Assembly: GCA_944323675.1 (NCBI GenBank) | Contig: CALUTK010000005.1 | Location: forward strand, 1-47,473 | DNA: 47,473 nt | From: Candidatus Gastranaerophilales bacterium | GTDB lineage: Bacteria > Cyanobacteriota > Vampirovibrionia > Gastranaerophilales > Gastranaerophilaceae | Reading direction: 5' to 3' | Program-made: the position numbers and the translations under genes | The notes under the pieces: generated by a model | The model's input: only the letters and a program-made list of their open reading frames with translations | Database searches by the model: none | Told to the model about the DNA's origin: nothing | Shown: positions 18,975 to 19,419 of the stretch, in pieces | Layout of the letters: every line of letters begins with the position of its first letter | How positions within the stretch are numbered: the first letter of the stretch is position 1

Positions 18975-19000
18975 AAAAAGCCGAACATATAGTCCGGCTT
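18975..19000 (-). terminator. Rho-independent terminator of the 44-residue peptide transcript
   Basis: On the reverse strand AAGCCGGA and TTCGGCTT form a stem around a 7-nt loop followed by TTTTTG. It lies about 110 nt past the small gene's stop. Confidence 0.75.
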
Positions 19001-19017
19001 ACGCATATAAACTTCTT

Positions 19018-19079
19018 GCCGCATAGCGGCTTGTCACTAAAAGTTTGGAGTTTATACTCCTTAGAGCCGGCAGAGCCGG
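19018..19079 (-). ncRNA. Structured 3' region with three tandem hairpins
   Basis: Between the small gene's stop and its terminator there are three perfect compact hairpins on the reverse strand: CCGGC-tct-GCCGG (19,079-19,067), GGAGT-ataa-ACTCC (19,060-19,047) and GCCGC-tat-GCGGC (19,030-19,018). With the terminator this gives four stem-loops in about 105 nt. It may be a functional 3' UTR or the body of a small RNA. No known family was recognised. Confidence 0.5.
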
Positions 19080-19108
19080 TTTATCTCTTTCATACCCTAA
19101 TCAAACAG

Positions 19109-19243
19109 CTAGGCATCAATGGCTTCTTCTGTTTGTTCAATCTTTGTAATCAAATCGTCTATCTGTTCTCTAACGTATTCCAGAAACAGTCCGATTTCTT
19201 CTTTAAAACTGTAGGCACCCGGCCAAGCTGTATATCCGTACAT
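19109..19243 (-). CDS. Small protein of 44 residues with a sequestered ribosome binding site
   Basis: The open frame starts MYGYTAWPGAYSFKEE, followed by a mostly helical acidic part (EYVREQIDDLITKIEQTEE) and ends IDA. AAGGAG lies 9 nt before the ATG, an excellent ribosome binding site. That site pairs perfectly with ATCACTCC upstream, so it would be hidden in a stem. An own terminator follows. It has no recognised homologue. The aromatic, Gly/Pro-containing N-terminus plus amphipathic helix suggests a small binding or oligomerising peptide. No signal peptide or membrane segment is seen. Downstream of and on the same strand as the ACT/AGCS genes, but probably a separate transcript. Confidence 0.7.
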   Translation of the reverse strand: MYGYTAWPGAYSFKEEIGLFLEYVREQIDDLITKIEQTEEAIDA

Positions 19244-19248
19244 GGTTA

Positions 19249-19295
19249 ATCACTCCTTATACTGTCTAACCTTACATGCAAGGTTACGGAGTGAT
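19249..19295 (-). promoter_or_regulatory. 5' leader hairpin masking the ribosome binding site
   Basis: In the reverse-strand RNA AUCACUCC (19,295-19,288) is fully complementary to GGAGUGAU (19,256-19,249), which contains the Shine-Dalgarno core. Between them is a second stem, TAACCTT-gcatgt-AAGGTTA (19,286-19,267). This two-tier structure would close the ribosome site and could act as a thermosensor, ligand switch or protein-binding operator. Confidence 0.6.
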
Positions 19296-19419
19296 AAAAG
19301 AAAATCTTTAAATTTTAGACCAAATTATTAAGTATTTGTTACATTTTTGTTCTTATCTTCTATTTTTAATCAAGCGTTGTATTCTCTGCACGACTACGAA
19401 AACCGGCACACTTTTAAAT

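Follow-up and report, generated by a model that had tools for sequence, protein, structure and literature searches.

The window, a stretch of 47,473 nucleotides, carries on its minus strand a gene for a 44-amino-acid protein (19109..19243), preceded by the Shine-Dalgarno (SD) sequence AAGGAG (19253..19258), which was recognized from the sequence and from homologous upstream regions. A sequence-only reading had described this 44-codon frame with its AAGGAG, and both are present on the minus strand in the ORF list and the sequence. Homology searches bore the frame out, as reading frame and N-terminal motif are conserved in relatives. With the protein as query, relatives were found in 34 of 59 related genomes, and all 13 genomes of the window's genus have a homologue. 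A profile scan of reference genomes returned 128 related stretches, 80 of which were kept; the 128 were mostly titled Gastranaerophilales, Melainabacteria or uncultured bacterium, with a few under other names, as deposited. Of 107 genomes drawn evenly from the class, 29 matched the protein, 28 of them from the window's family (28 of its 33 listed genomes) and one a weak match elsewhere. Among the 59 relatives, several genera of the family had no detectable homologue, though they have kept the sigma factor and FlhA described below.

The protein begins with an almost invariant block, WPGAYSFKxEI. Across 12 homologues the pairwise pN/pS was about 0.28, and most variation fell at third codon positions. 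Judged by these comparisons, the gene is real, conserved and under purifying selection across Gastranaerophilales, which are non-photosynthetic relatives of Cyanobacteria. No accepted family in Pfam, PHROGs or NCBIfam matched the peptide above cut-off, and its PDB profile matches were to DARPin constructs at chance level only. A structure model predicted one helix (residues 8-43, mean pLDDT 84.7); as modelled, the protein is the WPGAYSFKxEI start followed by a single amphipathic helix. Neither a signal nor a membrane segment was evident when the sequence was read by eye. Searches for a phage or viral origin gave no matches in viral contigs and two weak partial ones to one Bacteroides phage, and no operon partner emerged from synteny, since gene neighbours change between genera.

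Upstream of the gene lies a predicted sigma-28-type promoter. Its -35 element, TAAAGATT (19303..19310, minus strand), corresponds to the TAAAGTTT conserved upstream of homologues, and its -10 element, CCGTAAC (19283..19289), is a genus variant of GCCGATAA; the site is an exact match to the genus pattern (G000:C5:19284-19310). Sigma-28 promoter geometry, that is the distance to the -10 element, would place the transcript start at 19275..19281. Nearly all homologues are preceded by the pattern TAAAGTTT-N12/13-CCG(A)TAA, usually ending 33-45 bases before the ATG, and promoters of the form TAAAGTTT-N11-GCCGATAA, suitably spaced from the start codon, were found among them. When 79 upstream regions were scored for sigma-28 likeness out of 15, 55 reached at least 13; of 395 shuffles none did so, and of 395 random windows 3 did. 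On this evidence the conserved pattern is the sigma-28 (FliA/WhiG-type) consensus. The window's own promoter (19310-19284) is the genus variant, and its CCGTAAC fits the general -10 consensus only weakly; the call here rests on the CCGTAA variant being genus-wide and common to other sigma-28-type promoters in the same genome. The TAAAAT at 19317-19312, which had been read as a -10 element, did not fare well: a sigma-70 scan found no promoter-like site there on the minus strand, and relatives instead keep the sigma-28-type promoter that starts just downstream. Judged by its promoter, the gene appears to be under the control of sigma-28, the flagellar sigma factor, which would turn it on. The earlier proposal of a regulated small protein stands as far as the conserved protein and its regulation are concerned, the latter through a sigma-28-type promoter, and is largely unsupported with regard to a masked leader.

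The same promoter type recurs elsewhere in these genomes. The general pattern, TAAAGNTT..CCGATAA, had no match in the window's genome, and the search was therefore moved to the genus variant CCGTAA; across 13 genomes this variant gave 83 matches and its reversed control 4, an excess of about 20-fold. The CCGATA form was likewise in excess in 16 further genomes. The -10 shift from CCGATAA to CCGTAA runs throughout the window's genome and genus (g1), where several promoters share it. Among the distinct genus sites, 64 of 72 were intergenic, and the same few protein families recurred downstream. The families behind the genus's sigma-28-type sites (L155-L229) include proteins of 377-590 aa beginning MG[LM]xASQAR, of 81-83 aa beginning M.EQIAFNERDFHFLKN, of 427 aa beginning MKNKDV.SGVSLFGQSEYL and of 404-444 aa beginning MVDAIG, as well as another family of small proteins, 52-53 aa long. 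Those downstream proteins which were tested had few or no matches in Pfam, PHROGs or NCBIfam. At L055:3338-6790, a gene of the MGLAASQAR family has neighbours that seem phage-like when read by eye.

A FliA/WhiG-family sigma factor that could use these promoters had a match in 59 of 59 genomes, above cut-off in 53; that of the window's genome (G000:C1:42627-43289) scored 247 bits against a cut-off of 189.6. In a search of the 59 relatives, flagellin was not detected in the window's genus and was found in many of the order's other members. Incomplete flagellar gene sets have been noted in some members in earlier work (PMC3787301, PMC5877343). FlhA had a match in 58 of 59 genomes, and the window's flagellin-less genome contains a FliE-FliF-FliH-FlhA locus (G000:C28:12000-25325, L069). 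Its FlhA reached neither the cut-off of the FlhA model nor that of the SctV model. An FlhA of this lower-scoring type is present in almost all of the Gastranaerophilales tested and accompanies a higher-scoring one in flagellin-bearing genomes. The window's genome and many relatives also encode a protein of about 495 aa (G000:C16:27540-28553, L070) in which FHIPEP is represented by its C-terminal half only, resembling the FlhA cytoplasmic domain.

Two conserved linear motifs, neither of which the sequence-only reading had named, mark the untranslated parts of the predicted transcript. GGTTAG (19266..19271, minus strand) stands near the predicted 5' end and is specific to the 44-aa gene, occurring in 60 of 79 homologous leaders and in 1 of the 58 leaders that follow other sigma-28-type promoters. 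After the stop codon, CTGTTTGATTAGGGTATGAAAGAG (19085..19108) is the local copy of a CTGTTTGATTAGGGTATG-like motif that is conserved across genera, at a variable distance from the stop, in most family members. It is likewise specific to this gene: a motif score of at least 0.8 was reached by 66% of 88 homologues and by fewer than 1% of controls, the consensus having been built from these same homologues, and within the genus exact or near-exact copies occur almost exclusively at the 44-aa locus. The three perfect hairpins described earlier are all present. Hairpin 1 (CCGGC-TCT-GCCGG, 19079-19067) and hairpin 2 (GGAGT-ATAA-ACTCC, 19060-19047) are lineage-specific, and most of the genus retains hairpin 3 (GCCGC-TAT-GCGGC, 19030-19018), some of the changes in it being compensatory. 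The strong terminator seen earlier, AAGCCGGACTATATGTTCGGCTT with a T tail (19000-18978), was confirmed; it is conserved in relatives, its pairs being kept through compensatory changes.

The SD itself can be drawn into a perfect 8-bp stem, ATCACTCC/GGAGTGAT (19295-19288 with 19256-19249, minus strand), enclosing an inner AACCTT/AAGGTT stem, and the whole stretch at 18975-19317 folds better than its dinucleotide shuffles (z = -3.1). The 5' arm (19288..19295) overlaps the promoter spacer and the -10 element; lying between -35 and -10, it should be absent from a sigma-28 transcript. In the predicted foldings the SD is masked in the long transcript and mostly open in transcripts starting near 19278. 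Covariance, which was to have supported the masking stem, spoke against it: apart from the window and its nearest relative, where the stem can form, most homologues have lost the pairing, including most of the window's genus, and the homologues showed no anti-SD pairing with compensatory change. The inner stem is not conserved in homologous leaders either. Taken together, the masking stem is probably mostly a by-product of where the promoter lies.

Two alternatives would give the stem a function. The original proposal was a thermosensor or a ligand- or protein-controlled leader whose masking stem opens on a signal; the perfect stem over the SD and the strong fold speak for it, but with its anti-SD arm inside a conserved promoter, pairing lost in relatives and no Rfam match at the leader (the only match in the window is the tRNA), we regard this as highly improbable. 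Somewhat better placed, and still unlikely, is an insulator against read-through, in which the spacer arm would mask the SD solely on messages that run in from upstream, and transcripts made by sigma-28 would start inside the stem and be translated. Comparable read-through masking of the ribosome site is known from phage T4 late genes. Such a role fits the pairing of the SD in long and not short transcripts, the presence of CTCC in the promoter spacer of 25 of 79 homologues against 0 of 58 other sigma-28-type promoters, and arms of 10 bp in one relative (L009) and 7 bp in two others (L127 and L136). However, most homologues lack the arm, as does most of the window's genus, own and swapped leaders differ little in anti-SD complementarity (4.68 vs 4.40 bp), and the comparison with other promoters gave p = 0.08 by a statistic that ignores kinship, the CTCC-bearing homologues falling into related clusters. 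We take the CTCC enrichment as a lead, namely that in some lineages the arm may mask the SD on read-through transcripts.

Two further alternatives assign the locus another product or target. The transcript may be a dual-function RNA, in which the sigma-28 message encodes the peptide and its conserved 3' segment, up to the terminator, works as a small RNA that base-pairs with targets. Its persistence across genera at a shifting distance from the stop, its near confinement to this locus within the genus and the compensated terminator that follows it are consistent with this idea, and E. coli provides a precedent in sigma-28-dependent small RNAs derived from untranslated regions (PMC10578931), which share the sigma-28-type promoter, the short RNA and the conserved untranslated segment; here, in contrast, a conserved small ORF is part of the RNA itself, and the likeness drawn is one of layout. 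When 58 leaders of other sigma-28-type promoters were scanned for duplexes, the result was only weak, scattered pairing (mean z -0.6) and no target, and the motif could instead be a protein-binding or stability element, so we hold a dual-function RNA to be possible but doubtful. The peptide might also be an anti-sigma factor, standing in for FlgM in a feedback loop on sigma-28. FlgM (PF04316) was found in 0 of 59 genomes, all with a FliA/WhiG-family match, though the model may miss a diverged FlgM, and the gene would, as FlgM does, make a small protein, helical in this case, under sigma-28 control. Unlike FlgM, to which it has no sequence match, the peptide has 44 aa and a single predicted helix. 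RsiG, the anti-WhiG factor (PMC8325347), is likewise a small helical protein in organisms whose WhiG-family sigma factor lies outside flagellar control, but its c-di-GMP motif, E-x3-S-x2-R-x3-Q-x3-D (PMC8325347), is missing from the peptide, and no homology was found. Several genera, moreover, carry the sigma factor and no detectable peptide, and an anti-sigma role therefore seems to us improbable.

The explanation that we favour, and consider reasonably probable as a whole, is that this is a stand-alone gene for a sigma-28-controlled helical small protein, made from its own short mRNA, and that the protein probably works for an export apparatus of flagellar type which has been retained although the flagellum has not. 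Transcription would start at the sigma-28 (FliA/WhiG-type) promoter and end at the gene's own terminator, and the message, lacking the upstream stem arm, would leave the SD largely open. The protein would most likely be a regulator, chaperone or small substrate of the export apparatus (the FliE-FliF-FliH-FlhA locus), which Gastranaerophilales seem to have retained even where flagellin is gone. The comparative basis comprises the conservation of and selection on the protein, the conserved and recurrent promoter, the sigma factor and the motifs in the untranslated regions. The link to export is suggested by the shared promoter type and genome content; co-occurrence cannot discriminate it, because the sigma factor and FlhA are near-universal in the order.

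Set beside late flagellar regulons under sigma-28 (FliA/WhiG), the system has the same consensus (TAAAGTTT / GCCGATAA), a FliA/WhiG-family sigma factor and recurrent downstream families; it differs in that flagellin and FlgM were not detected in the window's genus, the -10 element has shifted to CCGTAA genus-wide, and the tested downstream proteins match little or nothing in Pfam, PHROGs and NCBIfam. In a bolder version, which we think unlikely, the sigma-28 regulon of gut Gastranaerophilales would have outlived the flagellum and would run a flagellar-type export system with its own substrates, the gene being a dual-output member (helical peptide plus base-pairing RNA segment) that possibly replaces FlgM. 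The locus also carries a warning: a ribosome site may be covered by a perfect stem simply because the other arm is part of a promoter. Sigma-28 is commonly taken as a marker of motility. Our results suggest that sigma-28, with a coherent set of promoters, has been kept in gut bacteria without detectable flagellin, and this small gene offers a handle for testing that.
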